Shown: one piece after another, positions 9,905 to 32,992 of the stretch
How positions within the stretch are numbered: the stretch's first letter is position 1
Layout: every line of letters begins with the position of its first letter
DNA from: Crambe crambe
Taxonomy: Eukaryota > Porifera > Demospongiae > Poecilosclerida > Crambeidae
DNA length: 64,000 nucleotides
Reading direction: 5' to 3'
Assembly (NCBI GenBank): GCA_963924555.1
Contig: OZ004594.1
Location: forward strand, 6,417,563-6,481,562
Notes under the pieces: model-generated
Seen by the model: the letters and a program-made list of their open reading frames with translations, nothing else
Told to the model about the DNA's origin: nothing
Database searches by the model: none
Position numbers and translations under genes: made by a program

Positions 9905-11330
9905 AAAAATAATCTAATGTATGGTTTCTGCTCTTACATGCACTCTAGAGCTTCATTCTTCCCATCTCAGAACTTACTACTACTGTCATAAAAAGAGCCA
10001 GAAATTACACGAAATCTTCTCTTTCTCAGCCATTGCTCAGCAAACGCTGGTAGTTCAGTGAGACCAGCAGAATGAAACATTTTTTTCCCTAGCTACATAA
10101 TTCAACGTCATGTAGCATAAGTCGCCAATTATCGACCGGCACCTATTATCGACCGCAGCAGCATCTATTATCGACTACTTAGTATACGGAAAGTCTATGG
10201 TAGTAAACAAACGTAAACGGATTCTAAGAAAATGGCTGCATTGAAAAAAAATTACAAGCTCTAGAGAGAAAATAGAACTTCAACAGCACGTATTTATCAA
10301 CTGCAGTATGAAAGTAAGTTACACGTTACCTATCGTCATGGCTCCGTAAATCACTTAAAAGGTACGAAAGCTATCGACTTAAAGTCGAATTTGGTGCTTG
10401 TTTAGTGAGGACTGTAGGATAGATTATGACTGGATTCTGTAGGAATATGAAACAAAGACTAATGAAGATTGTGTTCTAAAAGGATCACCAAAATCCAACG
10501 AAAAGGAGAGCTTCTGCAGCAGTTCCATTCCACCGTTAAATTGTGAAGCAGTTTATGGTAGAAATGCTTCGTTCATTTTTTATAAAATTTGTTATGATGA
10601 TATATTTTATAGCATAAAATAGTAGCTATAAAAGTATCTTTTTAAGGGCCCTAACATGTAGTGGAGCAGAACTGAAAAAAAGAATGGAACAGACGATGAT
10701 TGATATTATGATTTTCAATGGGTGGTCGAAAATAGGTACCGGTGGTTGATCAATGATTTTTTAGTTGACGTAGTAGATTCAGCATAGCAAAGTTCTATCC
10801 AATTGTGAGAAAAATAATTTATATGACGTTATGGAGGATGAAATTATCTTTCTTATGGTTGTTGTTTGAGACTTTGATGAACATCGGTGATGGAGATATG
10901 GTGTGAGGGGCAAAGTATGGTTGATAATCGGCGACTTACGCTACTAACGCATTTATCAGCGACTCTTTCCCAATTCATGCATGTGAGATAATTCTAGAGC
11001 TTACGAATACAGCACTAAAGCTAACTAGTCAGCCATGAAAGCTTCGTACGGAGAATCCAACAGCAGAGAGTTGTGTGGAAAAAATCACCAACGGGCTTTC
11101 CTGCTTATGAACTAAGCTATCTGTGCTACCTTGTTGCTTGTACCTTATTATTTGTACCTTATTACTCTTCCCTAGGCTTTGGTTGGCATTCTTTATAGCA
11201 TGAACTAGCACCTAGCTAGATAGATGGAAACCCCACCCCTTAAACAGCTCATTCATGTGACGACCTTTACCAAATATTCCAATTAACTGCTCAATATTGT
11301 ACTTGGTATGTGGTTGGCCCTTCAAAAAGA
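9905..11330 (-). repeat. Interspersed repeat D, copy 2, interrupted by C1
   Basis: Inverted relative to 1195-1790. The left part covers the TGCACTCTAGAG, CAAACGCTGGTAGTTCAGTG words. The right part resumes after 10943 with TTTCCCAATTCATGCATG and runs to the CTTGGTATGTGGTTGGCC end. Removing C1 restores continuity with D copy 1 at a TA dinucleotide. Confidence 0.75.
10115..10941. mobile_element. MITE C1, TA target site, mariner-like ends
   Basis: Ends are GCATAAGTCGCCAATTATCG and an inverted relative (CGATTATCAACC-type complement of GATAATCGGCGACTTACGC). A TA dinucleotide flanks both ends (10113-10114 and 10942-10943), as for Tc1/mariner elements. The 827-bp body has no transposase frame, and a second copy of nearly the same length is at 54926-55746. 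The insertion lies inside repeat D, whose uninterrupted copy gives the empty site. Confidence 0.75.
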
Positions 11331-13745: not shown

Positions 13746-14530
13746 TAAGACTAGTGCACTATAGCGGAAGTTTATTATGACATTGATTCATCACATCAAC
13801 ATAGCTCTTTTAATTCAAGATGCCATAAACAGGTTAGATACCTTGCTGAATGGGAGTGACTGTGTTTAGGCCCCTCTAGAGTGGTTACATGAATCAGAAA
13901 CCAGAAACTATACAGAGAGAGGGTTATGAATTAAAAATTCATGTATAGTTACTTAATCCCTTCAGAGATTGACCAGTAACAGGAATTTGCACTAGGAGCA
14001 TGTATATTATTAGCTATAGCTCCACTTTTTGTGGATCACCAAACTGACCCACTCCAAACATCATAATCTAGCTACATGTCAATATTTTACATGAGTAAAA
14101 CAGGCTAATGAACTCCAGAAACCACAGCGCACCAACTTACTAGCTATGCTCCAAGAAACAGGATGTCACACTCACATTAATATGCGCATAACATTACTTG
14201 CGCGTGCGAATACCTAAAGACATGTTAATGCATAGTGCCTTCTGGTGAGAAGCTTCTTTCACTGAGTTTTAAGGAAAGCACATCATTCATGGCTACTTTT
14301 CTAAGTAATGAATCATAATTCATCAGGTAGCCTCTGAGATAAAGAAAACAGATAACCTCCGAGATAAGGATAAGTCTTTTCCCCTGTGTATATGTAGTCT
14401 GGTATTTAGATAAGCTGGAGACATGTAATACTTGGACTTATACACTAGCTGGTGCTATAACATTTAGTAATGGAGTAACCTTCCAGTTCCTCAAAGAAAA
14501 GGGGAGGCAAGCATAACAATAAATTTTTCC
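13746..14530. repeat. Duplicated spacer segment a, carrying empty sites
   Basis: Paralogous to spacer DNA at 16430-16502 plus 28470-28522 plus 33190-33530, and to 46980-48550. Shared words include AACAGGTTAGATACCTTGCT, CAGTAACAGGAATTTGCACT and CCTCCGAGATAAGGATA. Here the sequence is continuous where the other copy carries the transposons at 16503-28469 and 28523-33189, so it serves as the unoccupied target for both. Confidence 0.75.
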
Positions 14531-16502
14531 CATATCACTGTCTCCTTGATAGGAAAGCTAACATGAAAGCTAAATGACACTGCTTTGACTCTTCAATAGT
14601 CCTACCACACTGAAGGAGTTGCTTATAGTAGAAGACAAATGATTTGTATTATTCAAATGGAGCATCCCACTTGAATAATAAAACAGCAGCTTGAATCCGA
14701 CTGGTTATTAAAAGAGAGTAGCTATATGCATTCTAAAAATGAAAGTGCATGCTACATATCTAAGGAATGTACTCTGTAAACAGCTGCATACCTTCACAGT
14801 AAAAACAGAAGCGTTATATGTACACTAAATATCCCAATACACACACACTATAAGTGTGCAGTGTACACTTTCGTTTTTACAGTGCACTCTTGTAAACTGT
14901 TTACAGGGAGCATTGCGGTTTAAAGTACACACTTAGCTATAGTGGAGCTATTTCTTATAGCATGGGTGCAGACAATGCAAGTAGATCATAATGTGTGCAC
15001 CTTGGATTTACAGTTTTAAGATTGCCTGCAGCCATCTTATAATAGTGTGATCTGGCTTGGGAACATTAAATGCTTAGACTAGTGTACTAGCGGAAGTTTT
15101 AAGTGCAATCATGATGTCAATATAATAGCTCTAACTACAATTCTGTTGGTAGCATCTTCAGCAAATTAGTAGTTGTCATGATTACAATAAGATGATGTCA
15201 TCCAATAAAATGCACCATTAAGGAAGGGTGGCAGCATACTACACCCACACACGGTTGCTAAGGAAAATCAACTTCAAAACTATTCATGATAAAAATTTCT
15301 AACTTGCACCAAAAAGTTATTAAGTACCAGAATAGTACTACATACATAAAAAATGAAGAAAGACAAATTATAAAGACTGATGTTATGACCAATTTCATTC
15401 TCAAGGTAAACTGTGTTGCATCTCAATGACCACTTGGAATTAATGGCTGATTCTTTGATATACAGCTTCTTATACTTATTTCCATATTTATTTTTTGTCA
15501 ATTCACAATTTATTTTTTAATTTATCCATATAGGATCTTGTGTCCTGCACATTCTGTACTAGCTACTAGCTTTAAACTAAAGCAAAATGTACCTTATCAA
15601 GTACTTGCCATATAATTATGCAAAATATTGGCCCATTCCCATGCATAGTTCCTGAGTTACAGTAATTTGTTCATTATTCATGCTAGCATGGATTTTAAAG
15701 GTGCCAAAGCAGCTGCTGCTATTGCGCTATTTCAGTAGCTTCGTCTCCAGGCCCTCCTGTACGCAAAAATATTGCAAAATCATAGAAACCCATAGCGTGG
15801 GTGTGTCCAAGGAAACGCAGTCCCATCGCATACGTCACCATGACGAATCGGTACTACGACCACGTACGAGCACATGGCCGGCCAGGCCTAAGAAAGAAGA
15901 GGCATCGAGCCATTGAGCTGCCACTGAATTTGAGTGTTGCTACGCTTTGCTAGCCTAGTATGCTCCATAGCCTAGCAACAGATAGTATCAGAGCTGCCTA
16001 TTGTTAGACAGTAAAGCAAGTAGTTTAGATTTTAGGCTTAGCTGGATTATAAATAGATCAGCCTCAGAATTCTTCATGAGTTTTAGTAAGTCCTTGGTTA
16101 TATAGCCATAGCAAATTGGTCATTTTGTTGTAGCGAAACAGCGGAAGTTCTTCTGAACACCTGGTCATAATGCTCTCGTACACTGCCCACGCCCAATCAG
16201 ACGGTTCTACCCTACCGTGACTTCGTGAACCGGGCCTGGGGGGATGAGGCTATTAGCACAGTGGTGCTTGTGGTTAATTAGTGCTTGTACCAGTGCATGC
16301 CTCAGTTACTATGTGCGGCTACCCTTAAGCATCATGTCAAATTCTTTCTTATGATGCTTATACTTTGTATATACTCATCATAGTAGGTATGGCTTTCTTA
16401 GCTCACTTATTTTTGAGATGCTATAAACAGGTTAGATACCTTGCTGAATGGTGTTTAGCTCCCTCTAGAGTGGCTGCACGAATCAGAAACCAGAAGGATT
16501 TC
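14531..16502. other. Non-coding spacer with one foldback repeat
   Basis: A foldback lies at about 14769-14905 (CTGTAAACAG...CAGTAAAAACAGAAGCG pairing with CGTTTTTACAG...CTGTTTACAG). GGGCCTGGGGGGATGAGGCTA near 16233 resembles sequence at 46957, another trace of the segmental duplication. From 16430 the paralogous spacer resumes up to the transposon at 16503. Frames at 15280-15501 and 15680-15916 show no domain or splice support. Confidence 0.5.
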
Positions 16503-16539
16503 GGTTGTGTGCACAAATAGAAGTATATCCAAATGATGT

Positions 16540-16616
16540 AATGCATAATGATGGAATGCATAATGATGTAATACATAATGATGTAATGCATAATGATGTA
16601 ATGCATAATAACATGT
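16540..16616. repeat. Minisatellite of 15-bp ATGATGTAATGCATA units
   Basis: Five near-identical units lie just inside the left terminal repeat of the large transposon, whose inner part (CCAAATGATGTAATGCAT) overlaps the first unit. The complementary right terminus has only one such unit. Frames such as 16421-16606 are products of this repeat. Confidence 0.8.
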
Positions 16617-16679
16617 AATTTCGTGTATATGATGATAATGAGTATAATTATGCTATATAGCTACATGTAGTTTATTAGA

Positions 16680-17515
16680 GGTAGTGAGTATTACAGCAGA
16701 CAGTAAGACTGCATGACATAGGCAGTATAAATAAATACTTGCTGACAGTAGGACAGTATGACACATTAATATGTAGCTAGACAGTTGGACTTGTAGACAG
16801 TGGGACAGTACACAGTGGACACTTGGGACAGTAAGACACTGGGACAGCTAGTAGCTATTACATGCAGACAGTGGGACAGTAAGACAGTGTTAAAGACTGG
16901 GACAGCTAGTATTACATGCAGACAGTGGGACAGTAAGACAGTGTTTAAAGACAGTATTACATGCAGACAAATAAGACAGTGTTAAAGACTGGACAGCTAG
17001 TATTACATGCAGACAGTGGGACAGTAAGACAGTGTTGAAGACTGGACAGCTAGTATTACATGCAGACAGTGGGACAGTAAGACAGTGTTTAAAGACAGTA
17101 TTACATGCAGACAAATAAGACAGTGTTGAAGACTGGACAGCTAGTATTACATGCAGACAGTGGGACAGTAAGACAGTGTTGAAGACTGGACAGCTAGTAT
17201 TACATGCAGACAGTGGGACAGTAAGACAGTGTTGAAGACTGGACAGCTAGTATTACATGCAGACAGTGGGACAAGACAGTGTTGAAGACTGGACAGCTAG
17301 TATTACATGCAGACAGTGGGACAGTAAGACAGTGTTGAAGACTGGACAGCTAGTATTATATGCAGACAGTGGGACAGTAAGACAGTGTTGAAGACTGGAC
17401 AGCTAGTAGCTATTAGTGGGACAGCAAGACAGTGTTAATGACAATAATTACATCAAACAGTGGGACAGTAGCTATATAGCTAGCTAAGACAGTGGGACAG
17501 TAAGACAGTAGCTAA
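16680..17515. repeat. Left subterminal minisatellite, about 53-bp unit
   Basis: Seven or more copies of a unit built from GAAGACTGGACAGCTAGTAT, TACATGCAGACAG and TGGGACAGTAAGACAGTG, with shorter variants at both edges. The GGGACAG and TAAGAC words recur, in inverted orientation, in the right array (GTCCCAGAGTCTTA), so the two arrays face each other like subterminal transposase-binding repeats. The repeat-only frames at 16800-16985 and 16890-17114 are not genes. Confidence 0.85.
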
Positions 17516-17670
17516 TGAGCACATGGTGTAGTTAGCTAAGCACATGGTGTAAGATTTCATGAAGTCAAGGTAACTATAGCTAGCTAACTAGCTACTTAGT
17601 TATAAGAGGATCTATTGTTAGCTCAGCTATATCTAACTAATGTTGCCCATCTTGCTTGGCTAATACAGGT

Positions 17671-19848
17671 ATGATGGCTAGCCCCCCTGGATTAAAGCGA
17701 CAGCGTCTACTTATGGGCCCATCAATTAATGTGTCCCCAACTCATGCCCAGGAAGTCTCTCAAGCAGCTCAAAATTCTCCTTTCCCTTGGAAAGATGCTG
17801 TACCTGAGGAGATATCCAACTGGTTTGAGATGTACGCTAAGTCGAGAAACACCCTTCCTGAGTTCATTTTCACTGCAGCACTTACCACTGTAGCTGCTCT
17901 TATGGGTCCTAAAGTATATGTGAGGCTACGTAAGGAATATCCTGAACCTGTAAATCTTTTCACAATATGTATGGCCGAACCTGGTGCAGGGAAAAGTCAA
18001 GCATTTAGGATGTCAATTATTGATCCTATAATGTCACTGGGATCCCCTTTAAGTAACATTTTAGTTGATGAATATACCCGTAGAGGACTGTTTAGGCACC
18101 TACAACAGAATTCTGGACGGGGACTGCTTGCTTATGAAGAGCTTACTTCCTTTTTTGACCAAGTACACCGAAGACAGCTAGAAGGTAGTGGAGAAAGGCA
18201 AATGTTTTGCCGTCTTTATGATTCTGGCAGATGGACAAGCAGTATTGGTACATTTAATTGTTTTCATATACTGTAGCTATCACTTGCTGTTCTACATCAA
18301 AATTCTGTAGTGAACATAGCTATGAAGTTATGGATTTTGTTTGCAGGAACTCTTAACAAGGAAGGATCTAAAGAAGAAGTTAATGAGGCCTGCATTTGCA
18401 TCTGTGGGTTTCTACAGCCTGGACCTTTTGTTCAGAGAATCTTGCCTACACTGCTTGAGTCTAATGATGGCTTTGCTGATCGTCTACTGTTATGCTCACC
18501 ACATCCAAAACTCCTACTGGAGAGAGAAGTGGAAGAGTGGTGTGAAAAAATGCGTGCCCAGCAACTTGAAAACCTGTGCCAACCATATGCACTCATTGCT
18601 GAAGTTCACCATGATCTTGACTCTCCATTATATTACGAGTATAATAGTGCAGCAAAAGAGGTGTGCTTTTCCTTCTCGGATGAGATGACCACTATTATGA
18701 ATGATCAGTGGCAATCTGGGAAAAGCACCCATGGTAATGTCTCAAAGGATAAACGAACTATGATCAGGTAACTTACTGATCTCCATGCATTGATCCCTGG
18801 CACTGTGTGTAAACGTGTGTGGGCATGGCACATGTAACCAATGGTTTTGTGGTTTGTATTAATTATCACCAGAGGAAGGCTGTTAACCATTTCAGTACAA
18901 ACCAACCTGAAATCCAGTGGTGTCTACATACTTATTTCATCCCCAGCCATGATAATGTGTTTCTGCCTCCCAGTTAGTCTTTCCTTCAAGTCTTGGAGTA
19001 TTCTATGTAGATAGAAATGCAATATTATTATTCATTTATAGATTGAGTGGAGTTCTGCATGTATTGTACTATGTTATGAAAGAGTGCTTCAAAGAAGGAT
19101 CATCAAGGGAAGGAGCTGAGCCAGAAAAATTTACCATACCTCTTATTATTCCTGAAAATGTTGCAAGGATGGCAGTCCACTTAACAGAGTATTATCAGAG
19201 TCAAAGGATGGCTTATGAGAAGGTAAGTATAGTATTGTTAGTCCCATGGTGTATTGTTCTAACTGCATGGTCTGGGTTGTTATGTAATTTATAGTGTGTA
19301 ACTTATAGTGTATAATGTAGCTATGTTACTACATGTGGAGATTTTCCCTTCAACAAGTGTTGATATACAATATCATGTGTAAACCAGTGAGAAACCATGC
19401 ATGCAATAAATTAATCTTATTTTAGGGAATTGAAGCTGCTTCAAATCAAGCCATTGAACAGGAAGCACAGGCCAAAAGTCCGGAAACCCATATACTGCTG
19501 AGTAAGGGGCCATTTTGTACACCAAGAAGTGTTATTAAAAACATGACAACAAAAGTTCGTCCCAAACTAGATGAAATTGCTGATTATATGAAAAAACTTG
19601 ATGATCGCCACATTGGTACCTTTGTGAATATAAATCAAAAGGAACGAGCCTATTTCAAGCTACTTCCAGAAGATGATCATAAAGAAAGTATCTGCAGTAT
19701 AATAGGATCAAGATGGGAGGAGTATATTTCTAATTTTAAAAAAATTGATACTAAATACATCACGTTAACCCAATTTAATAGGCTTTTGGCCTCCTCTCCA
19801 TATTCCACTGAAGAAATGGCTCAGTATGAAATATATCCCAGGAAATAA
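17671..19848 (+). CDS. DUF3987-like P-loop ATPase, four exons, intact
   Basis: Exons 17671-18247, 18347-18767, 19042-19222 and 19426-19848 join in frame with GT-AG borders and total 1602 bp, or 533 residues plus stop. The start chosen is the ATG of MMASPPGLKR; an upstream 5' exon is possible because an acceptor (TACAG) precedes it. The protein has a Walker A motif, EPGAGKSQAF, about 110 residues in, and a hydrophobic-acidic GLLAYEELTSFF strand typical of Walker B about 55 residues on. A C-terminal helical part follows (LSGVLHVLYYVMKE, ending YEIYPRK). DUF3987 ATPases are best known from bacterial and phage replication modules and resemble helicases; that is family knowledge. Here a role in replicating or moving the element is inference. 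It converges on the transposase gene with about 130 bp between. Confidence 0.8.
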
Positions 19849-19978
19849 TTACGTACATGTACTAATCTCCAATCCGATCTACTCACATAGCTACAAAGAA
19901 TTATAGCATAAGCCTCCAAACTCTAGGCTGTATGTGGTACATCATTTTTATAGCATATAATTATACGTATTATAGTTG

Positions 19979-22900
19979 TTATTGGGTTTGACGTTGATAT
20001 ACTATTTTACTTTTAAAGGATAGTTTCCTGGAAAGTTTTTGTATTTCGTCTTGTGTTCGTTCAAATAATGCGAAGTCAAGTCTGAGTTCTTTAGTTATGG
20101 TAAAAATTGCGCAGTATATCTGATATAGCTTAGAAATATCTAGACTCTGAATATCTTCAGAGCAGAAGTTTTTTCTTTCCTCTTCCAGTAAATAATGTAT
20201 AATGCTGCTTACTAACAAAAATTCCATGTTGCTGAATCCACCAGTTGTGACTGGTTCTCCCATATCTCTCATGAATGTTAAAGATTTCTTCCCTTTGAGT
20301 GGAATAGATTGGCCTTGATGTGGTTCCCGTTTACGTTTCTGGCCTACTTTTGGGGGCTCATTCTTTGGCTTTATTCCAAAAGGGTTAGTACAATTTTTAC
20401 ATTTGCACACTTCTAGACAAGCCAGTTTTTCATTGTAGCAAGGGCAGCGGCAAGTATATTGAGTGATATCGAAGGAGCATGGCATCCCCTTCACTGATTT
20501 CCTGCCACAGTTACAACCTTTAGATCGCTGTTTTTTACTGCTACATTGAGTCTCCTCTGTTGGAGTAGTACTTTCTTGCACGATCGTATCTGTTTTAACT
20601 GCAGGCACAGCAGCACTGTAATGCCCACTTCCAAACTGATTGTATGCTAGAAATATTGGATCCATGTTCAATGTTGGAGAATGAGTAGGATGTTGAATAA
20701 CCACAGGCATATTCTTCACAGATGTAAACACCACAATAGGAGCCTTCAATATGTTACTAATTGCAGCTATTACAAGGTCTCCAACATTTGATGCAAATTC
20801 ACCACTATGGAGAAAATCACTGGCTTGTTCTTGTAGTTGGTTGCCAGTCATAAATTCCTTGTATTCATTAGAATACTCACCAAGCCATTCTGCTACAATC
20901 AAACTTCTCAATGTGGTAATTATCATATCAAATGGATTCTTGATATCAATTCCACAGCACTGTTGTAAAAATTTTCCTAGAATCATATTTCCATTGTTAA
21001 CCTGGTACTTCATATTGTGTATAATTGAATATAACAGACAGTTACCATCTTTAGGGGCTGAACTTTTAGAAAATTTCCAAGACTTAAGCACTTGATCAAG
21101 CCTTTCTTCGTGTTCCTGAAGTTCCTTATCACAAGTGGTTGACAATTCCATAGTGATGGGATCAAACAAGGAATTCAATGAAGTTGCCATAAAGGGAAAA
21201 TGTAGTACATCAATAAAAGCTGTTTCACTCACTTTATTTACTGCCACAGAAGTAAAGTACCATGCTAAACTCTTCATCAGGATACCTTTCATATCAGGTA
21301 TCGATACCAGTAGTTCAGTATGAGATAAATCCAGATCATCCTCATCACTAGTCAATTCCACATTACAAGATTGGTTGTCATCATTATCAATGCTAGTTTG
21401 TAAATTTTCCTTGGCATTTTCAATAGATATACCATTTATTCGCTCATATGCCTCGTGAAAGGTGCACGAACTGATGGTCAGAATATTCGGTACAGAAGTG
21501 GATGGCATTGGACTATCTTTGAATCGGAGCCCAAATTTTTCTGGTGTGATTGCAGTTTCAGCATGCAAAAGTTGGTAAAATTCGATAGAGTTTTGCAATC
21601 TCTGCTCTACCCTTGATGCCATTTTCACATTGTGCCTGAAGAAACATTCTGTAAATAGACCATATGCCAACTCAACTCCATACCTGGAAGCAGACATTAT
21701 GTTATTCAAGTTCTTGTGTAATTCCTCATTTCTGTTGGTTCCACGTCCTGGTTTAATCCCTGACAGGCATCCTTTTTTCATGTGTACTCGAATATTTTCT
21801 ATTTCTTTTAATGCTGACTCATTCATTACTGGTTGCTTATTATATTCTGCATCTTTCCATTGTTCCTTAAACTTGTCCAAATTTGATTCCAAAATCTCGG
21901 GGGCGGGTGTTATTAGTTTACGATCCTTTCCAAGATCAGAAGGATCCCTAAAGACTAGCCTCCAGTCATCCATGAAAACTTTCCTCAAAGGATGTTTCTT
22001 AGAGACCTTTTCTCCGACCCTTTTAATAGCATGGAAAAGATCCAACTTTACTTTTAAATCAAATCCAAATACTTCTTGTAATTTTTTTCGCCATGCACAG
22101 CAATTATCTACATAAAATTCTGAAACTTTTTTCTTTTGTGCTTGGAATCGTCTCTGCAATGCTGTAATTGCATCTCTAACCACATCAAATGCTACTCCAG
22201 ATGTCAACTTCCAAGTTACTACCTGACCAGATGAATTCAATATGCAAAATAGGGCACCATACTGTGTAATCCATCTCCTATCACCACTTCTGGAAATTCC
22301 AATGTTAGCTGTACAAAATAGAAAAATTGGCTAGTCCCCCATTGTTGTACAGTGAACCCTCACTGAACACCTACAGATTATCTAAAATACTGTAGTCCTT
22401 TCAGCCTTTATCCCTCATATAGCTACAATAGTTATAGCCTATAGCTAGTTATACACTGGCTGCTATAATTATAATAGTTAATCTTACTTGCTGATGCAAA
22501 AGTATGATCACAGCTTAGCCACGAGTTTTGATCATCAATGGTAGTGTTTTGCATAACTTTAATGTAGACATCTTCTTTCTCCCAAAAATCTGCCAAAAAG
22601 CAGCTTGATATTGAATGGTTTGACGGCAAAGAGGATGAAAACAATTCTAACCATTCTTCCAGTGAAGGAAAAGTATCCATTTTACTTCCTTTCGTTGCTA
22701 CAAATTTCAATTTCTGGCGATGATACCACCATTGAATCCTTTCAAATAGAACCTCACGTACTTTATGAATGCTCATTCCAAATGAAATAAGTGAGCATAT
22801 AAGCTGAATGTGTTCCAAGGTAAATCCAGTAATGTGCCATAATTTGAAAGGCACAAAACAGGTCGGTATTTCTTTCAAAATACCCGGATGATAACCAACA

Positions 22901-23325
22901 ACTTCATGGTTCTTGGAGCATGCATAAACACGGCATACTAGTAAAGTAATGCCATAAACACCATAAATCTTTCTAGGGTCAGATCGTAGACCTCCCATTC
23001 CATTTCTCCAACCTCTTGCATGAAGAGGGATATTTGGCACATTTAACATTGTGCACTTTGGACACACTACTTTTATCTTTGGAAATTGCTCCAGAGGGGA
23101 CCATAAAATTATTGGCGGCATCAAATACATCTCAGGTACCACACAAGTTTCCATTAATAAGGTCCTAGGACAGTTTTCGAATGTCATAATAGCAGGTGCA
23201 GCTGGACATTGATCATCAAAATCTTCACATAGTTTAGCAAGATGAGTACACCAAGAAAGTGGAAGTTTAACAGCTGTGGTCCTGGTCACTAAAGTAAACA
23301 AAATGAAGAAGTAGCTGCAACCCAT
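19979..23325 (-). CDS. DDE-transposase-like protein with OTU and CXC domains
   Basis: Two main coding blocks, 22488-23325 and 19979-22308, join at a 179-bp intron (donor GTAAGA, acceptor TTGTACAG) in phase 1. The first has a zinc-like pair (VVCPKC, YACSKNH) and ends at WLSCDHTFASAS, the likely first catalytic Asp. The second has a second Asp in FYVDNCCAWRKK and a Glu in GRGTNRNEELHKNLN, giving a D-D-E set. About 200 residues later an OTU-like cysteine protease domain starts at KDGNCLLYS (Cys) and ends at GSGHYSAAV (His). A cysteine-rich CXC-type module follows (CNCGRKS, CRCPCY, CKCKNCTNPFG). Total length is roughly 1050 residues. The start is uncertain: MGCSYFF may be intronic, since TTTACTTTAG just inside it looks like an acceptor. 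The OTU part may remove ubiquitin-like tags; that role is inferred. Confidence 0.8.
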
Positions 23326-23806
23326 GTTCTTTCAAGTCCTGGAGATCGAGAGCGCAGAGCTTTTTACACATGCGCACAATCATTGCTGATATGCGCGCGG
23401 GATATTAGCTGTCCCAATGTATATGTCCTATTGGTGTCCACTGTCCTATGTCTCACTAGCCAGTCACTAGTTACTGTCCCAGAGTCTTATGTCCTTCCTC
23501 TAGGACTAGATATATCACTGTCACAGAGTCTTATGTCCTTCCTCTGGGACTATAGATGTATCACTGTCACAGAGTCTTATATCCTTGATTACTCCAGCAC
23601 TAAATGTGTCCCAGAGTCTTATGTCCTCCCTCCAGTAGACTAGATGTATCACTGTCCCAGAGTCTTATGTCCTCCTTCCAGTATTAGATGTCTCACTGTC
23701 ACAGAGTCTTATGTCCTCCTCCACTACTAGATGTATCACTGTCCCAGAGTCTTAGCTATGTCCTCCTCCACTACTAGACGTCTCACTGTCCCAGAGTCTT
23801 GTCTCC
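23326..23806. repeat. Right subterminal minisatellite, left half
   Basis: About nine copies of a 44-46 bp unit containing TGTCCCAGAGTCTTATGTCC and CTCCAGTACTAGATGTATCA lie at about 23405-23806. On the complement it reads GGACATAAGACTCTGGGACAG, related to the left array. The array is cut at 23806 by the Ty3/Gypsy element and continues at 28004. The spacer 23326-23404 probably holds the transposase promoter on the minus strand. Confidence 0.8.
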
Positions 23807-23979
23807 TGTGGTATCTCCGAAATAGTAAAGAGTAATAGTCTGTTGATAGCTAGTTCTCTATATATAAAACAGCTGCTAGCATGATCATGCACCTCTAAGC
23901 AGGTGCTAACCTGTAAACATGTAACCTAATTATAAACAGTACATGTAACTACATGTGTAACTAGTATAGTTATACCACA
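23807..23979 (-). repeat. 3' LTR of the Ty3/Gypsy element
   Basis: 173 bp, bounded by TGTGGTAT and ATACCACA, and the same base for base as the copy at 27831-28003. In element orientation this is the downstream LTR. It carries a TATATATA motif that could be a promoter core. Confidence 0.95.
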
Positions 23980-23991
23980 TCTCTCTTTCTC
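23980..23991 (-). promoter_or_regulatory. Polypurine tract of the Ty3/Gypsy element
   Basis: On the minus strand GAGAAAGAGAGA directly precedes the 3' LTR, the expected position of the plus-strand primer for reverse transcription. Confidence 0.8.
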
Positions 23992-24000
23992 AGAGTTTGG

Positions 24001-27000
24001 TTAGAAATGGAATCGGTCAGGGGGGTGAATTACTGTTCCGGTTTGGGACCTTGTCATAATCTGGCGGGGAGGAGTATCAGGTTGTTGAACTCCATCGGAA
24101 GTCTGGTCATTAGGAATAACATTGAGGTGGCGGCGATTCCTCCTCACTAAGCCAGTGGGCGTTTCAACTATGTATGACCTTGGAGCATTGGCTGGTGTGA
24201 TTACCTGGCCTGTGGTCTCAGTCCCAGATGTGATTTGCACTTCTGTGTTGTTAGGAATAGGAGGGAGTACTCGAACACGATGACGGCTGTCAAAATTCTG
24301 CTTCTGCTTTTGTTTAAATTCCACATCCTTACGTCGAAATTCGTCCAGATATGGCCATTTCGGTAGCAACAGATCATCAACTTGTGGCAGTGCTGTACGG
24401 AGCTGTCTGCCCATTAGGAGTTCTGCTGGAGAAATATTACACCAGGGAAGGGGTGTGCTTCGATAACTGAGTACTGCTTGGTAGGGATCTTTTGACTCCT
24501 TCAACAGCTTCTTAACTGTTTGTACGGCCCTTTCGGCTAGGCCATTGGATTGCGGATAATGAGGGCTGCTGGTAATGTGGCAGAAATCGTAAGTTTTGGC
24601 AAAGTTAACAAACTCCTGGGAAGAGTATTGAGGGCCATTGTCACTCATCAGGGTTTCTGGTATACCAAATCGTGCAAATATGGGTTTCAAAACTTCGATG
24701 ATGCTGGCTGAAGTGGTGGTTTTCAACTTCACAACTTCGACAAATCTGGAGAAATAGTCTATGACTAGTAGATAGGTGGCTCCATTCAGCATGAATAAGT
24801 CTGTTCCAATCCTCTGCCAAGGGTAGTCTGGGAGTTTAGTTGAGAGAAGTGGTTCGCTTTTCTGTGAGGTATTTTTGATGCACTCTGGGCATTTTTCGAC
24901 CATGTCAGCAATATGCTGTAAAATACCTGGCCACCATACTGCTATTTTGGCTCGCAATTGACACCGTTGTATGCCCTGGTGACCACAATGTATTTTGTGA
25001 AGAATTTCTTTCTGCAATTGTTTAGGTACTAGGATCCTTCTGCCATACAAAAGTAGATTGTTATGAACTGTGAGTTCACTTCGTACATGCCAATATGGCA
25101 CGAGTGTGACATCGATGTCCCTTTTTTCATTTGGCCAGCCATGTCTGCAGTAATTGATGAGGGATGAACAAACAGGATCTGTTGCTTGTGCCTTCCGGAA
25201 CTCGTCTAGACGTGAACTGTTAGCTGGTAAGTGGTCAACGCACATTTCCATCAGTGACTCTGCCTCCTCCTGGAGTTTTTGATCTCCATAGTATGATAAT
25301 GGGGCTCGAGACAGCGTATCTGCAGTGTACAATTCTTTTCCTGGGACATGGATTATGTGATAATCAAATCGGTCTAACCTCAATCGAAATCGGAGAACTC
25401 GGGGTGGAAGGCTATTGAGGTTTTTTGCTCCCAGCAATGGGACCAGCGGCTTGTGATCGGTCTCAATTATGAATGGTTTTCCCAAGATGTAGCTGGAGAA
25501 CTTTTCACATGCCCATGTGCTGGCAAGGGCCTCCTTTTCAATTTGTGCATAACGCTGTTCAGTCTCAGACATAGAGCGGGAAGCGAATGCTACTGGCTTC
25601 CAGGAGGTTTCAGATTTCTGCAATAGGACTGCACCCAGGCCGTAAGATGATGCGTCAGCTGAAACTTTTGTGTCTGCTTCTGGGTCGTAGAGTGCCAAAA
25701 TTGTTTCATTAGAGAGTTCTGATTTAACCTTTTGGAAAGCTTGGTCCTGTGGAGTGCTCCACACCCACTGTTTCTGTTTGCTCAGTAGTTCTCGTAGAGG
25801 TTTAGTCAAATCAGCCAAGTTCTTTGAGAATTTCCCCAGCTGGTTGACCATTCCTAGGAACCTCCTCAGCTCAGACACTGTTTTAGGGGGGTCCATCTCC
25901 AGAATAGCTGAGGTCTTGTTTGGATCTGCTTTGATTCCTTTCTCGTCAATGATATGACCAAGATACTTTAGTGATCTTTTTGCGAACTCACATTTTTCCA
26001 AATTTAATGTTACTCCTGCAGCTTGAACTCGCCTGAAGACTGTGTCAAGGCGAGTGTTGTGCTCATGTAGGTCTTTCCCAAAGATAAGGACATCATCCAT
26101 CGAACAGAGTACGCCCTCAAGACCAACTAGGATTTCAGACATTCGTTTCTGGAAGTGTTCAGGGGCACTCGAAATGCCAAACGGTAATTTGTTGAAACAA
26201 AATCGTCCGAATGGGGTCAAGAAAGTTGTGAGAAGTCTTGATGGTTTGGCTAGGGGTATTTGCCAAAACCCACTGTTTGCATCAAGTTTGCTAAATACTC
26301 GTGCACCGGCAAGTTGGGCCAAAGTCTCATCAACTTTCGGTAAGGGGTGAACCTCTCGGAGAACATTTGAGTTAAGGGGTTTCAAATCTACACACACACG
26401 GATTTTACCCCCTTTTTTTGGCACAACTACCATTCCAGCGCACCATTCGGTTGGTTCATCAACTCTTGAGATTACTCCCATCGATTCCATTTTTTCCAAT
26501 TCCTCCTTGACTTTAGAACGTAACGGAAGTGGAACATGCCTCGGGGCAAATATTGAATGTGGGGATGCACCTGGCTTTAATTTGATAGTATACTCACATC
26601 CAAGGTTCCCAAGTCCTTGAAACGTTGGTGAGTATTTCTGTACAATCTGTGAGCGAATATCTGTAGTTTCCCCCACCCTTGCTACCAGGTTCAGCTGAGT
26701 AATAGCAGGGAGACCAAGCAGGTTATTCTTGAGTCCGTTGATTACGAACACTTGTTGTGTAGTGGTGATCTTCCCCTTAGAGAGTTTGGCCATGAATTGT
26801 CCTGTGACATCCAAAAGTTGTTTGGATGGTCCATAAAGGATCTTTTCTGCTTTGCTGAGTCTGGGTTTATCCAGACTTTCAAACGTTTGCTGGGAAATGG
26901 CAGTGACTTCTGCTCCAGTATCCAATTTAAATACTGTTTCTTGTCCATTTATACTTATCTTGTCGACCCAAAATGTTTTGGGATTAGATTCAACAGTATT

Positions 27001-27801
27001 CAAGAATGCTGCTTCCAAATTACATTCTTCTGTTACTTCTACTTCTGAAATTTTTTTGCTGAAGCATTGAGAGCTAAAATGCCCTCTCTTTTTGCAATTA
27101 TGGCACTCGGCATCTATGGCTGGACATTTTTCACGGGGGTGTGGGCCTCTCCCACAGCGAGAACAAGCTTTAAGTGTCCTGGAATTGTATTTTCTGCTTG
27201 TTGCGGGATACTTTCCTCGCCTTGAAGCTAGTTCATTCACAGAACTGAATTCTTTTGATCCTTTTAGTTCCTGTTGCTGTTCATGGACAGCTTCGTTTTG
27301 ACGTACCATTTCTTTTGCTTTCTCCAACGAAAGATCAGGGATTAGTTGAAGTCTCTCAGACAGTTCAGAATCAAGTATTCCCACAATGAGACGATCGCGT
27401 ATGAGTTCTGGTGTCATCGTTCCATACTCACAGGTTTCTGCCAACTTGTATAGTTCAATGATGTATTGTTCCACAGATTCCCCCTGTTGCTGATTTCTTC
27501 TGTTGAAAACAGCTCTTTCAAATATAACATTCCTCCGTACTTTGAAAAACTTGTCAAATTGCAATAGAACTGAGTCATATTTCTTTCTGTCATCCTCTGA
27601 AATACCTGTAGAGGTCAAAACATTCTCTGCTTCTTCCCCAAGACAATATAGCAGGGTACTAATCTGTCTATCTTCAGGATCCCTACTCAGGTTTGATGCA
27701 ACTCGAAATTGTTCAAATCTTTTTTTCCATCTGGGCCAGTCATTAGGGTTGCGGAAATTAAAGGCATCTGGAGGTTGTAAACGAATATGAGACATTTTCA
27801 A
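24001..27801 (-). CDS. gag-pol: Ty3/Gypsy Gag-Pol polyprotein, 1266 aa, single frame
   Basis: One uninterrupted frame. Residues 1-200 are a Gag-like capsid region. Two CCHC zinc knuckles of CX2CX4HX4C form lie at about 213-226 and 233-246. The aspartic protease has LDTGAE at about 293-298. Reverse transcriptase follows (VDLKPLN, KLDANSGFWQI, and SMDDVLIFG at about 567-575). RNase H includes KVSADASSYGLGAVL and ETDHKPL. Integrase shows an HHCC zinc site (HCGHQG to CPECI) and a D-D-E core (GTDLF, SDNGPQ, GLAERAV). Order PR-RT-RH-IN places it in Ty3/Gypsy. Gag and Pol share one frame, so no frameshift is needed to make Pol. The frame starts 30 bp inside the 5' LTR. No stops or missing catalytic residues were noticed. 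Confidence 0.95.
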   Translation of the reverse strand: MKMSHIRLQPPDAFNFRNPNDWPRWKKRFEQFRVASNLSRDPEDRQISTLLYCLGEEAENVLTSTGISEDDRKKYDSVLLQFDKFFKVRRNVIFERAVFNRRNQQQGESVEQYIIELYKLAETCEYGTMTPELIRDRLIVGILDSELSERLQLIPDLSLEKAKEMVRQNEAVHEQQQELKGSKEFSSVNELASRRGKYPATSRKYNSRTLKACSRCGRGPHPREKCPAIDAECHNCKKRGHFSSQCFSKKISEVEVTEECNLEAAFLNTVESNPKTFWVDKISINGQETVFKLDTGAEVTAISQQTFESLDKPRLSKAEKILYGPSKQLLDVTGQFMAKLSKGKITTTQQVFVINGLKNNLLGLPAITQLNLVARVGETTDIRSQIVQKYSPTFQGLGNLGCEYTIKLKPGASPHSIFAPRHVPLPLRSKVKEELEKMESMGVISRVDEPTEWCAGMVVVPKKGGKIRVCVDLKPLNSNVLREVHPLPKVDETLAQLAGARVFSKLDANSGFWQIPLAKPSRLLTTFLTPFGRFCFNKLPFGISSAPEHFQKRMSEILVGLEGVLCSMDDVLIFGKDLHEHNTRLDTVFRRVQAAGVTLNLEKCEFAKRSLKYLGHIIDEKGIKADPNKTSAILEMDPPKTVSELRRFLGMVNQLGKFSKNLADLTKPLRELLSKQKQWVWSTPQDQAFQKVKSELSNETILALYDPEADTKVSADASSYGLGAVLLQKSETSWKPVAFASRSMSETEQRYAQIEKEALASTWACEKFSSYILGKPFIIETDHKPLVPLLGAKNLNSLPPRVLRFRLRLDRFDYHIIHVPGKELYTADTLSRAPLSYYGDQKLQEEAESLMEMCVDHLPANSSRLDEFRKAQATDPVCSSLINYCRHGWPNEKRDIDVTLVPYWHVRSELTVHNNLLLYGRRILVPKQLQKEILHKIHCGHQGIQRCQLRAKIAVWWPGILQHIADMVEKCPECIKNTSQKSEPLLSTKLPDYPWQRIGTDLFMLNGATYLLVIDYFSRFVEVVKLKTTTSASIIEVLKPIFARFGIPETLMSDNGPQYSSQEFVNFAKTYDFCHITSSPHYPQSNGLAERAVQTVKKLLKESKDPYQAVLSYRSTPLPWCNISPAELLMGRQLRTALPQVDDLLLPKWPYLDEFRRKDVEFKQKQKQNFDSRHRVRVLPPIPNNTEVQITSGTETTGQVITPANAPRSYIVETPTGLVRRNRRHLNVIPNDQTSDGVQQPDTPPRQIMTRSQTGTVIHPPDRFHF

Positions 27802-27812
27802 TAGCTAGTGTT

Positions 27813-27830
27813 CAATCACCGCTGCCACCA
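27813..27830 (-). promoter_or_regulatory. Primer-binding site of the Ty3/Gypsy element
   Basis: Immediately next to the 5' LTR, the minus strand reads TGGTGGCAGCGGTGATTG. The leading TGG complements a tRNA CCA end, as expected. Which tRNA is used was not determined. Confidence 0.7.
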
Positions 27831-28003
27831 TGTGGTATCTCCGAAATAGTAAAGAGTAATAGTCTGTTGATAGCTAGTTCTCTATATATAAAACAGCTGC
27901 TAGCATGATCATGCACCTCTAAGCAGGTGCTAACCTGTAAACATGTAACCTAATTATAAACAGTACATGTAACTACATGTGTAACTAGTATAGTTATACC
28001 ACA
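27831..28003 (-). repeat. 5' LTR of the Ty3/Gypsy element
   Basis: The upstream LTR in element orientation, 173 bp and identical to 23807-23979. Followed by the CTCC target duplication at 28004-28007. Confidence 0.95.
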
Positions 28004-28330
28004 CTCCCTCCAGTAAGATGTATCACTGTCCCAGTCTTATGTCCTCCTTCCAGTATTAGATGTCTCACTGTCACAGTCTTATGTCCTCCTCCACTATAGA
28101 TGTATCACTGTCCCAGAGTCTTAGCTATGTCCTAATTAGCTACTCCAGTAGCTACACTAAATGTATTATGTCCTTGATGTATCACTAGCTGTCCCAGAGT
28201 CTTATGTCCTCCCTCCAGTACTAGATGTCTCACTGCATGTCCCAGAGTCTTATGTCCTCCTCCACTACTACATGTATCACTAGCTACTAGCATACTGTCC
28301 CAGAGTCTTATGTCCTCCCTCCAGTACTTT
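28004..28330. repeat. Right subterminal minisatellite, right half
   Basis: Six or seven further units of TGTCCCAGAGTCTTATGTCC continue the array broken at 23806. The unit at the break is restored when the LTR element and one CTCC are removed. From 28331 to the terminal repeat the DNA is plain AT-rich sequence. Confidence 0.8.
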
Positions 28331-28678
28331 GTCTTTCATCTGGTAAATATCTGTTCCACTGACCAGAGTAAATGCTTTTACCTATTATATCTACAATAAT
28401 AATTATATAATTATAATGGGTGTAACTGTATTACGTCATTTGGATATACTTCTACTTGTGCTCAGAGCCAGGATTTCTGCGAGGGTATGAATTGAAAATC
28501 CACCAATCAGACTGTACTATAGGCCATCAGTAGTAAAATACCTGTTCAGGGTTGCTCGACCGACTTAGAAATTCAAGACCTGAGAAAATTTATTTTTAAG
28601 TGCGCATTATTTAGAAACACACATGCACAGGTGCGAACAGCTGCTAAAACTAGACTCGAGATTCCCAAGGACCAAGAC

Positions 28679-31600
28679 ATGATCTGGCTTCTGGTTTTTG
28701 TGATATGCGGGGTTGCTATTGCCTTTGGACCTGGATGGTTCGAAGTTCACGAAGGTGTAACTTTGGCAGATCTTCTAGAGCAAGTGACAGGTCAGAAGTA
28801 TCTGGAAACTGGTGTGAGTGTGAAAACAGCTAAAGATGAACACTCCCCAATGCATGCTGCTGCCTTAAGCCAGCCCCTATCAACATTCTATTCATATGGT
28901 GATCGGTATGTTAAGTTTACAGTAACACCTCAGGAAACAAGTAGAGTAACGGAGGTAGTAAACGGACAGTCAACAAAGTTGTGGTTTTTCCCGGCGGGTT
29001 AGCGAGTGCAAGGAAGATTGCAGGGGGGCTTTGGATAGCTATGGGCCTACCTCGCTCTATCCAGGCAGGAAGCTAAGCAAGTCCTATTATGCTGATTTCT
29101 GGGAGAGATTTAGAGTAGGCGCCTACTGGAGGCAGTTAACGGACAATAGAGGCAGTTGGCGGACAGCTCTTAAAATGAAGGTAAAATGGCTGCACATGTG
29201 CTTATTATTGTAAGAAATGATAATGATAATGATAATAGAAGATAACATGATTCAGTTTCTTCTTCTATCATTAACACAGGAGATGGTCCAGGACTTGAAA
29301 CTTGCTTAACCTTCAAGCTGGAGTGATCATGTACCATGCTCTTTGGTATACAATATTTTGCTGCTGTTTCTCTGACAGACACCTTCCCCTCTCTAACTTC
29401 CTCTGCAGCTCTCTCCAGATCTTCGGATTTCCAATTTCTCCGCTTCCTTGCTGTTGCCATGGCCTATTATAAAGATCATTACCCATTATTATTCACTGTC
29501 CAGTAACTGCCTCCACAATAAGAATCTATTTACGCCAAAATTGCTGATACTGTGTCAGTCATGTTATTTTATGAAGGGTACATTTGGAAAGAGCAATAAA
29601 TTTGCTCTTTATTGATATATAATGTTTTGTGTTTACATGTAGTTTTTGTTTACTATGTGCAGTTATAAAGTTGGTTTTTCTTACAGTTATTTTTTCCATG
29701 CCTCATTATTTGACCGAGATACTAACTATGATCATTCAAAGCAAAAATTGAGCAGGAAAAAACTACGCAAATTTACTGAATTAGCTGTAGATTCTTACTC
29801 TTAAAAAATCACTACTGTCAGCAAAATTTGAAATCTCCCGCCTATTGGTACCAATTTTACCATGGGTCAAAGTCTAAAGTGTCCGTAAACTACCGCTGTC
29901 CGTAAACTCCCATCGCTACTCTACATCTGGGGTTATTGATGCCGTTAGTATATTGATGAGGCCTAAGAATGCAAAGCATCTCCCTCCCAAGCATAATACT
30001 GTTCATAACAACAAACAGTTGCTTTTCAATGATGTTTGTGTGCTGCTATCTGAAAAGAATGTTGGATTTACAATTGATGAAGTTCAAGGTATTGGGCATC
30101 ATATTGTGCAAACATTAACAGATATATTATGGTATATTGATGGCCAACATCATAAGTTTGACAGCAGAAGTAGGCATGGAAAGGTTACCCCTATACCTAG
30201 TTTGTTTTCAAGATTTAATAAGGGAGATAAAGACAATACAGGAGGATATAATGATTGGAGGTCAAAGCGAAGGAAGCCCCCTCAGTTGAGCCAAAAGGAT
30301 ATTGTTGAACATAAAAACAAATTAGTTACACTTATTTCTCACCCTCGATTATGCACGGCTCAGTGGAAAGAAATGAGAAATGAATTAGAGTGCTTTGTGA
30401 AATGCTTACATGAGTATGCAAATCAGATGAGAGAAAACTTGGTTCACAGTGAAGAAAGACATCATAGCCAACAGCCTCTTCGTTTACTAGAAGTGGACAG
30501 TGCATCCCGTGACATTCCTGCAAGCAAGGCACCTATCAAACCAATCTATGCCAGGTTGTTGTGCCGTTTGGAAAAAATCGACTATTATGATCCCATTCTA
30601 ATAGATACCAGCCTTTCTGTGTCCGACAAATACACGAGATATCGGTTCTTCAAGGATTTAGAACTATCGTGTTCTATTCATCTCTTTGTACACCATGCAG
30701 GCAGCCAACTTGGTAACATATATTATTGTTGGAAAATACCAGAAGATGAGAAGGATAGGTGTCAGCGAAAGCATGGTTTGGTAATGGTCCAAGTGAAAAG
30801 TGAAATCCCAGTATATGCATCACGAGCTATGCGGAAGGCATTTTCTGATCGGTACCAGCATGTCAAGAAACTCACTCCAGTAATATTCCGAAGTATGTAC
30901 CGATACCTCACTGATGATTCTACTTCAGAATCACAGAATCTAGATATTGACAAACGTCTGGAGATGATGCTGGATGATCCAGATGTGGACCTTGTTGTAG
31001 ACAAGAGGGAACTAAATCAAGGTAGAAAATCTAACTTTGAAGCTTTCTGGAAGGAAGTGGATATGCTGTTGGAGGAGTATGGGAAGGCTGTTCATGAGCG
31101 GAGACATGGACCAGATGTGGCACATATGCCTTTTGCTATCTCAATACCTGACCTGATAAAGCAAGTTGCTAGCAGACTTCCTGAAGATTCTCCCATACCG
31201 TCTGAGCCATGGGTTCGTTTTCAGTTCTGGCCAAAGAACAGATTCTCGGAAACTGCCAAACGTTACAGTTGCCGATTTGATGTCAAGTATAAGGTTCAAA
31301 GTCGACAACTTCGTAAATCGCACATTGACGCTCGATACTGTGCTGTCCTTTTTCGCTATTTGAAGGAAATGACTGTCAAGTTTCGTGATAATGCTACACT
31401 TGTATTTTTAGATGACAAGAGCAAGATACCAATAGGTGAGTGCATGTAGTTACTGTATTGCTATTATCTAAACATAGCAGTTTAGCCTTCATGTATTATT
31501 AATAATAATATAGGAGAACCAGATTGTCCTACTAGTGCCGTTCCTCGTAATACACATGCTCTGACAACCAGTTCTACAATATTGGGTGCGTGCGACCATG

Positions 31601-32992
31601 ATTTCACAAAGTTCAACCTTACACCATCTGTTTATTTAATATGCGACATCCCTGATGATCCTGTCCTATCTTTTTACCGTGGCCAACCAGTTGTGATACT
31701 GAAGGATTCGGTTTTTTCAACCCTCAAATCCCTACCGGCACATGGCAGAGTTTGTTAAACTGGCCAAGAAAAACTTCTGTGAAAATGTAGTGCCACCTGT
31801 GATGTTCTTCTACCATGATGGTGGACCCGATCATCGTTTGAAGTATCATTCAGTCATGATCAGCTATATTTGTGCCTTTCGGTGGCTGAACCTTGATTTC
31901 TTGGTAGCTGTTCAAACTGCTCCCAACAATAGCTGGCTTAATCCTTGTGAGAGATTGATGTCTATACTCAACCTTGGGTTGCAGTGTGTGTCTACTACAC
32001 GTTCAATGGCATCTCCTGAAATTGAAAAGGTTCTGAAATCATGCAACTCTATGAGTTCTATTCGCAAGGAAGCAGATTCAAACTCTCTGCTTGAGAAAGC
32101 TGTGGTTGATTCACTTCAATCTGTCATCTCACTAGTTGAGAAGAGGTTTCAAAGATTATCACTGAAGGAAAATGTGTTTCAAATAGGTGAATCAGCTACC
32201 ACTGATGACATCGAGTGCCTATGGAGCTTTGCAGACATGATTGATGATCAACTATCCATGTCCAACACCACTCAAAAGGACATTCAAAAGGCCAAGACCT
32301 TTTTGAAGTTTGTTGAATTGCATTGTCATCTTAGGAAGTATTCGTTTCAGATCAAGAAATGTAGCGATACCTCATGCTGCCCACCTTCACGACTACCTAC
32401 AGAAATATTTTCCAAACTAAAGTGGCTACCAGATCCCACTCTTACATTGGATAAAGGAAATTACAAAACATTTCAAGAATTGTATGGACATGATACAAAA
32501 GATACCGACTGTCCATCCATGGCCATATGCCGTGAAAGAGAACAAGAACCATCATCTTTATTCACAGCTTCAAAGGTTCGGGGAGTGGCCCAATGTTTGG
32601 CCTATGATAAACCTAGGTGTTTATACTGTGACAAGCAATCAATCTACAAGGAAAATGAAAATATTGTCATTCTTGCTATAGAGAGTAACTTATACATATG
32701 TGGCTCTCCTATCTTCCCAGAAAATCACCCTCTATCTGAACTGATTAGAGTGCGCCACAGTGTGTCATGCAAGTCACCTATCGAACGATCTTATTACTCA
32801 AACAAAACCCTGAAGTTACCCTCCCTGTGTGTTTATTGTGGTGAAAAAGATTGCTCTATTCCTGAATCTTTCCAGCAACGTTTCAAGCACGTTCTCCCAA
32901 TATGTGCTGGTTGCTCTGATAAGAAGTTAGAGCCCATTACATACATGCCTATTAAAATTGGAGTAAAAAGAAAGCACCCTGATACTGCATAA
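28679..32992 (+). CDS. DDE-transposase-like gene of element A, with one frameshift
   Basis: Likely exons: an N-terminal block from ATG 28679 (open to 29002, 3' border unclear), about 29949-31435, and 31514-32992. The second-third join uses GTGAGT and TATAG and rebuilds FLDDKSKIPIGEP, so the first catalytic Asp lies at the splice. The second Asp is in YHDGGPDHRLKYHS and the Glu in SWLNPCERLMSILN. The tail has paired cysteine motifs (CVYCGEKDC, CAGC) ending KRKHPDTA. The N-terminal block matches the ORF of element B2, and the tail matches that of B1. The third exon hits a stop after AHGRVC because a T-run at 31712-31717 seems one base too long; downstream the correct frame continues from HMAEFVKLAK. 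This is either a disabling mutation or a sequencing error. The nested insertion at 29126-29916 lies in the first intron. Confidence 0.75.
29126..29916 (-). mobile_element. Pogo/Tigger-like element nested in element A
   Basis: TA flanks both sides (29124-29125, 29917-29918). The ends are imperfect inverted repeats in which GGCAGTTAACGGACA and GGCAGTTGGCGGACA are repeated twice on the left, and matching GTCCGTAAACT words appear twice on the right. It lies between the N-terminal block and the second exon of the element A transposase, probably in an intron. It carries only an N-terminal piece of a transposase (29320-29460), so it is non-autonomous. Confidence 0.65.
29320..29460 (-). pseudogene. 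Psq-type helix-turn-helix fragment, pogo/Tigger family
   Basis: The peptide opens MATARKRRNWKSEDLERAA and continues through VSVRETAAKYCIPKSMVHDH, a pipsqueak-type DNA-binding helix-turn-helix as found at the start of pogo, Tigger and jerky proteins. It goes on to PGPSPVLMIEEE, the usual linker, and then degenerates into a Leu/Ser-rich tail with no DDE domain. It is a truncated transposase rather than a full gene. Frame open to 29170. Confidence 0.7.

Follow-up and report, generated by a model that had tools for sequence, protein, structure and literature searches.

What does a helicase-type ATPase gene do inside an animal DNA transposon, side by side with a transposase gene? The question is raised by a stretch of 64,000 nucleotides from the genome of the sponge Crambe crambe (contig OZ004594.1, positions 6,417,563 to 6,481,562; the whole stretch is called the window), in which an element at 16503-28469 (11967 bp) carries a DUF3987-family ATPase gene beside a transposase gene with DDE, OTU and cysteine-cluster (CXC) regions. 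The element is a eukaryotic DNA transposon, autonomous and recently active, with a length of about 7.8-8.0 kb when a nested retrotransposon is left aside. As judged from its sequence and from literature searched without subscription papers or Repbase, no named family fits the whole element. The best explanation, to which we assign a probability of roughly 0.5, is that it transposes replicatively, in a copy-out/paste-in-like manner, with a helicase that it encodes itself.

The mobility of the element follows from its other copies, sought in the 143 Mb (119 contigs) of this one genome, from which all locus counts below derive. Allowing up to three mismatches, the end sequence occurs at seven sites in the 143 Mb: three complete copies account for six of them, with two ends each, and the seventh is a solo end; a reversed control pattern gave 0 sites in the same 143 Mb. 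The complete copies, C17 (the window copy), C1 (7751 bp) and C3 (8018 bp), lie at unrelated sites and share the same GG-starting ends, and each is bounded by its own 8-bp duplication (AGGATTTC for C17, ACAGAGTG for C1 and GGGACCCC for C3), perfect at 8/8 positions. A preliminary description of the window had named two observations that would speak against it, a separation of the two genes in other copies and the lack of an 8-bp duplication there; neither was made, as the duplication is perfect and both genes are present in all three complete copies. A truncated fourth copy (C6) has neither end and retains both genes in part, with interruptions. Relative to the window copy, the gene block is 99.93% (C1) and 99.68% (C3) identical, and each complete copy encodes the two proteins at full length, with no (C1) and one (C3) residue differences in the ATPase and one (C1) and two (C3) in the transposase. 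Full-length, near-identical proteins and near-identical gene blocks therefore indicate that the element family was recently active and that the gene pair moves as a unit.

The solo end is a left end of about 180 bp on C9 (L028 972-1154), with one mismatch and with no right end in the surrounding DNA examined.

The window copy and its flanks are composed as follows:

16495..16502, no strand: 8-bp target site duplication AGGATTTC, left copy
16503..16545, + strand: left terminal inverted repeat (TIR) with GG start, 43 nt
16532..17408, + strand: left subterminal tandem arrays, 15-nt units followed by 53/144-nt units
17671..19848, + strand: DUF3987 ATPase gene
19979..23325, - strand: DDE-OTU-CXC transposase gene
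23473..23806, - strand: right subterminal tandem array, portion ahead of the nested retrotransposon
23807..28003, - strand: nested Ty3-type long terminal repeat (LTR) retrotransposon, foreign to the transposon
28004..28340, - strand: right subterminal tandem array, portion beyond the nested retrotransposon
28427..28469, - strand: right TIR
28470..28477, no strand: 8-bp target site duplication AGGATTTC, right copy
13818..13960, + strand: unoccupied paralogous site, an element-free copy of the flanking repeat

Most of this layout had been anticipated in the preliminary description. The inverted ends (16503-16545 and 28427-28469) pair over 43 nt with 86% complementarity, the 8-bp duplication stands as a direct repeat on both flanks (8/8 identical), and the alignment of the unoccupied site near 13.9 kb through the joined flanks is clear on the left and weaker on the right. 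The two genes are convergent in the splice models built here, with the ATPase on the + strand and the DDE-OTU-CXC protein on the - strand. The claim that only two genes lie within the ends has to be withdrawn, since the Ty3-type retrotransposon at 23807-28003 is a third coding sequence, with a single open gag-pol frame of 1267 amino acids. Its LTRs (23807-23979 and 27831-28003) measure 173 nt each and are identical at 173/173 positions, and a 4-bp duplication, CTCC, surrounds it (23803-23806 and 28004-28007). It sits in the right subterminal array and is missing in both other complete copies (C1 and C3). The greater length of the window copy relative to its sister copies is due to this insertion. 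Searches against Rfam gave no match at the gathering threshold. To the right of the element, at 29878-32992 (+) of the window, lie two long open frames of 523 and 429 amino acids without a Pfam match at E ≤ 0.01.

The ATPase gene comprises four exons (17671-18247, 18347-18767, 19042-19222 and 19426-19848; splice sites predicted by eye) and encodes 533 amino acids. The motif EPGAGKSQAF, noted before, is confirmed as a Walker A motif that begins at residue 103, and the first exon passes the Pfam cut-off for DUF3987 (PF13148; 54.5 versus 27 bits, E 1.4e-14). A full-length relative of the protein, P0070, matches PHROG DNA helicase families at E 4e-15 and, at E 1.4e-9, the latter portion of a DNA primase, and the helicase match supports, at the level of sequence similarity, the earlier designation as a replication-type ATPase. 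Judged by these profiles, the ATPase is a P-loop protein of the DUF3987 family, akin to the helicase part of phage primase-helicases. One study (PMC5862659) describes DUF927 and DUF3987 as predicted helicases that take the place of known helicase domains in the primases of mobile elements of prokaryotes; the same ATPase families and the same interchangeability recur here. Unlike its prokaryotic counterparts, the ATPase of the window is a stand-alone protein without a primase match in Pfam and lies beside a DDE transposase in a eukaryote. A profile search with the ATPase returned 50 proteins, counting the query members and the window's own, one of which is named from the coral Dendronephthya gigantea. 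Among viral contigs, 29 stretches led to one relative, on the phage-like IMG/VR contig L020. This DUF3987-like ATPase (9980-11167, +; 28-31% identical) directly follows a frame that resembles DNA polymerase I, as named by eye.

The transposase gene has two exons (23325-22488 and 22308-19979) and encodes 1055 amino acids. The conserved residues D273, D347 and E474 are its candidate catalytic residues, with D347 presumed over D369 as the second aspartate. The D-D-E, OTU and CXC architecture proposed earlier holds in part: the OTU domain is recognised by Pfam (E 1.1e-7) and combines a predicted OTU protease fold with the catalytic Cys/His pair C703/H842, while the cysteine cluster from about residue 878 stays below the cut-off for MSL2-CXC (E 0.003; 17.8 versus 26.7 bits). 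Among 59 relatives of the transposase, 19 match MSL2-CXC at some level, with a best E-value of 5.3e-6. For a relative with 36% identity, the predicted structure is matched best by ISCth4, a transposase of the copy-out/paste-in IS256 family, with the OTU domain behind it; the core of this relative is accordingly predicted to adopt an RNase H-like DDE fold of IS256 type. A search of viral contigs with the transposase profile (43 pattern stretches) and one of GTDB genome contigs (33 stretches) yielded no relative. By eye, an alignment also reveals a hydrophobic, signal-peptide-like start of the transposase (23325-23260, -), shared by the relatives P0032, P0038, P0041, P0046 and P0066, which is odd for a nuclear enzyme.

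Several features of the element recall IS256 and the eukaryotic MULEs. Short TIRs are combined with 8-bp duplications in all three complete copies, as well as, with one mismatch, in a related element described below. The D-D-E spacing is 66 and 107 residues in ISCth4 and 74 and 127 in the window transposase if D347 is the second aspartate. In contrast to IS256 and MULEs, the element adds the OTU and cysteine-cluster domains, an intron and the second (ATPase) gene; the Pfam MULE profile matches one of the 59 transposase relatives, at E 0.07. Membership of the KDZ superfamily was rejected: PF18758 matches none of 23 relatives including the window protein (complete list, E up to 1), KDZ is absent among the 25 of 42 Pfam families listed for the 59 relatives while the rest match at most one member at E > 0.08, none of the 54 KDZ matches in the genome falls at the element, and hhalign gave a probability of 0.6% (with a two-sequence profile). 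The short motifs VDRFH and NTECAEQ are KDZ-like by eye only. The 8-bp duplications reported for Zisupton (KDZ) elements in PMC12730594 are shared by the element and are not specific to KDZ; a further point of likeness, set out below, is that KDZ-family transposases of the same genome also adjoin DUF3987 genes. The P-element family was likewise rejected, as no P-type Pfam match (PF21789 tested) was found in the window protein and 22 relatives; none of the 134 TNP-like (PF21789) matches listed for the genome, with 150 of 203 candidates scored, lies at the element. For hAT and IS1595/Merlin there was no Pfam match in 23 relatives and no representative among the 50 structure matches listed, a search that would miss weak relatives.

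In agreement with the preliminary description, which knew of no named eukaryotic superfamily with this gene pair, no superfamily model convincingly matched the DDE core; possibly, the element family bears a name in Repbase or in the subscription literature. By title, the papers found to name DUF3987 concern bacteria, archaea or phages, and searches directed at transposons, eukaryotes, cnidarians and sponges returned nothing relevant, nor was any mention of DUF6729 or any description of a KDZ-DUF3987 pairing found in the literature searched. Eukaryotic DNA transposons with single elements of this architecture are described: Ginger, related to LTR-retrotransposon integrases, has an OTU domain (PMC2836005), and KolobokP carries a second enzyme, a homing endonuclease (PMC9587614). 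The available parts of these two papers do not mention a helicase-type ATPase for either.

Related transposons in the same genome suggest that an ATPase recurs in this position. A genome search with exon 2 of the transposase gave at least 42 matches, grouped into the four loci of the window family and at least 18 diverged loci. At C11:2467261 (L045), an intact diverged transposase gene stands head to head with a P-loop ATPase gene that has a DUF927 match below the cut-off (E 0.002). The element at L045 (1087-10152, continued in L055; 9066 bp) is flanked by an 8-bp duplication whose two copies differ at one position (CATGAAAA/CATAAAAA) and has GG-starting TIRs of 47 bp (94%) as well as inverted subterminal tandem arrays. 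When its ATPase was searched in the genome, seven of at least 13 matches had a diverged DDE-OTU locus no more than 7 kb away, where chance would give 0.023 with this radius, which was picked after the distances were known; the six other matches have no such locus within 7 kb. One further pair was found by reading L057, so that a DUF927-like ATPase is present at eight of the 18 diverged loci grouped. Two of these loci, L056 and L057, are copies related to each other (DNA identity 93-98%); their ATPase genes are arranged head to head and have DUF927 matches at E 0.011-0.017. The helicase gene thus looks like an exchangeable module, with a DUF927-like ATPase in its slot in related transposons. 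The two-gene system proposed earlier therefore holds as to joint movement, and the pair is not exclusive: several diverged DDE-OTU loci carry a DUF927-like ATPase, and DUF3987 also occurs beside KDZ-family transposases.

The latter association emerged from 20 DUF3987 loci (our own grouping), 16 of which were inspected: four are members of the window family, one of them truncated, and 12 lie outside it. At seven of these 12, the DUF3987 gene is arranged head to head with a KDZ-family transposase gene (L017, L018, L047, L048, L049 and two pairs in L052), and the partner genes form one homologous set. The transposase of L017 passes the KDZ cut-off (E 9e-8), that of L018 matches KDZ at E 0.06, and those of L047, L049 and both L052 pairs have matches below the cut-off (E 9.5e-6 to 0.064) to CxC5, a cysteine cluster that takes its name from KDZ; the tested pieces of the L048 transposase match neither. 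Most KDZ assignments are hence below the cut-off and rest on homology chains; L017 alone of the seven pairs is near one of the 54 genome-wide KDZ matches, and the other pairs were recognised by reading the DNA. At L053 and L019, DUF3987 is accompanied by a KDZ-like fragment only, and at L046 and L054 no transposase partner was seen beside it. A DUF3987 fragment at L016 (6457-7777, -) has a P-element-like TNP fragment 0.45 kb away on the same strand, a pairing that may be due to chance because TNP fragments are common in the genome (at least 134 matches). A scan for TIRs at two KDZ-DUF3987 loci and one L052 pair recovered both controls (the window and L045 elements) and no convincing ends. Over the aligned part, the KDZ-linked ATPases of L017 and L018 are 29% and 25% identical to that of the window, which makes a recent swap inside this genome unlikely.

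Under the replicative explanation, the transposase would synapse the ends, with the inverted subterminal arrays as candidate binding sites, and would join one end to the other in the manner of IS256-type enzymes. The ATPase would then act as the element's own replicative helicase; by unwinding the branched intermediate, it would allow copying out of the element, and the resulting copy would be inserted with a stagger of 8 bp. A possible role of the OTU domain is to deubiquitinate the transposase, chromatin or replication factors. A replicative helicase role explains why two different helicase-type ATPases occupy the same slot, and that the ATPase assists transposition at all is something we infer from the recurrence of the pairing in one genome. 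A number of observations weigh against this explanation. An IS256 fold does not prove copy-out, as the eukaryotic MULEs, which are IS256 relatives, are classically cut-and-paste, and to our knowledge IS256 itself encodes no helicase. The best score for the NCBIfam IS256 model is 24.6 bits versus a cut-off of 150, with nine of 59 relatives matching at all, and the window-like protein P0013 has no IS256 sequence match. The best structure match has a high root-mean-square deviation and concerns a model of a relative, in a list that tests the parts outside the OTU domain little. As regards the ATPases, the L018 piece has no PHROG match, the DUF927 assignments are below the cut-off (E 0.002-0.017) and rest on homology chains, and the ATPase of L045 has a clamp loader as its best PHROG match (6e-4) and GTPases as its best PDB sequence matches. 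At ten of the 18 diverged DDE-OTU loci, all ten with open frames below 500 amino acids, no ATPase was found within 7 kb. Finally, neither activity nor a circle nor a replication intermediate was observed.

Tn7 (TnsC), Mu (MuB) and IS21 (IstB) share with the window element a two-gene layout of transposase and ATPase, although the families of both proteins differ from those found here. By analogy, the element could be a cut-and-paste transposon whose ATPase selects targets or regulates the transposase, an explanation that suits a stand-alone protein without a primase match and accommodates the recurrent pairing equally well. This main alternative we nevertheless consider rather improbable, because the best profile matches of the DUF3987 relatives tested are helicase and primase families rather than AAA+ target selectors, and the partner in related elements is DUF927-like, again a predicted helicase family. 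The ATPase gene could also be cargo picked up by the element, or could serve against silencing or in host interaction, and in either case be dispensable for transposition, comparable to TET/JBP in fungal transposons, for which passive transfer between transposon lineages is described in PMC12730594. That DUF3987 adjoins both DDE-OTU and KDZ-family transposases would fit such passive transfer. A dispensable passenger is nonetheless unlikely, given that the slot beside DDE-OTU transposases is taken by either of two different helicase-type ATPases and that the gene is intact and near-identical in all three complete copies. The notion that host genes or separate mobile genes came to lie between the ends by chance draws on the occurrence of nested elements in the genome, one of them inside the window copy itself; for the window family it is already refuted, as the gene pair recurs within the same ends at three unrelated sites, each marked by a different duplication.

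The usual view of eukaryotic TIR transposons is that they move by cut-and-paste and rely on the host for DNA synthesis. Tentatively, and at somewhat less than even odds, the element would represent a eukaryotic, replicative superfamily of IS256 type that transposes by copy-out/paste-in with its own helicase, within a network that swaps DUF3987/DUF927 modules between unrelated DDE-OTU-CXC and KDZ transposons. The combination of an IS256-like transposase with a phage-type helicase family, together with the KDZ-linked ATPases, would open replicative transposition in animals to direct testing, and the pairing would give a context to the DUF3987 and DUF927-like genes of marine invertebrates.

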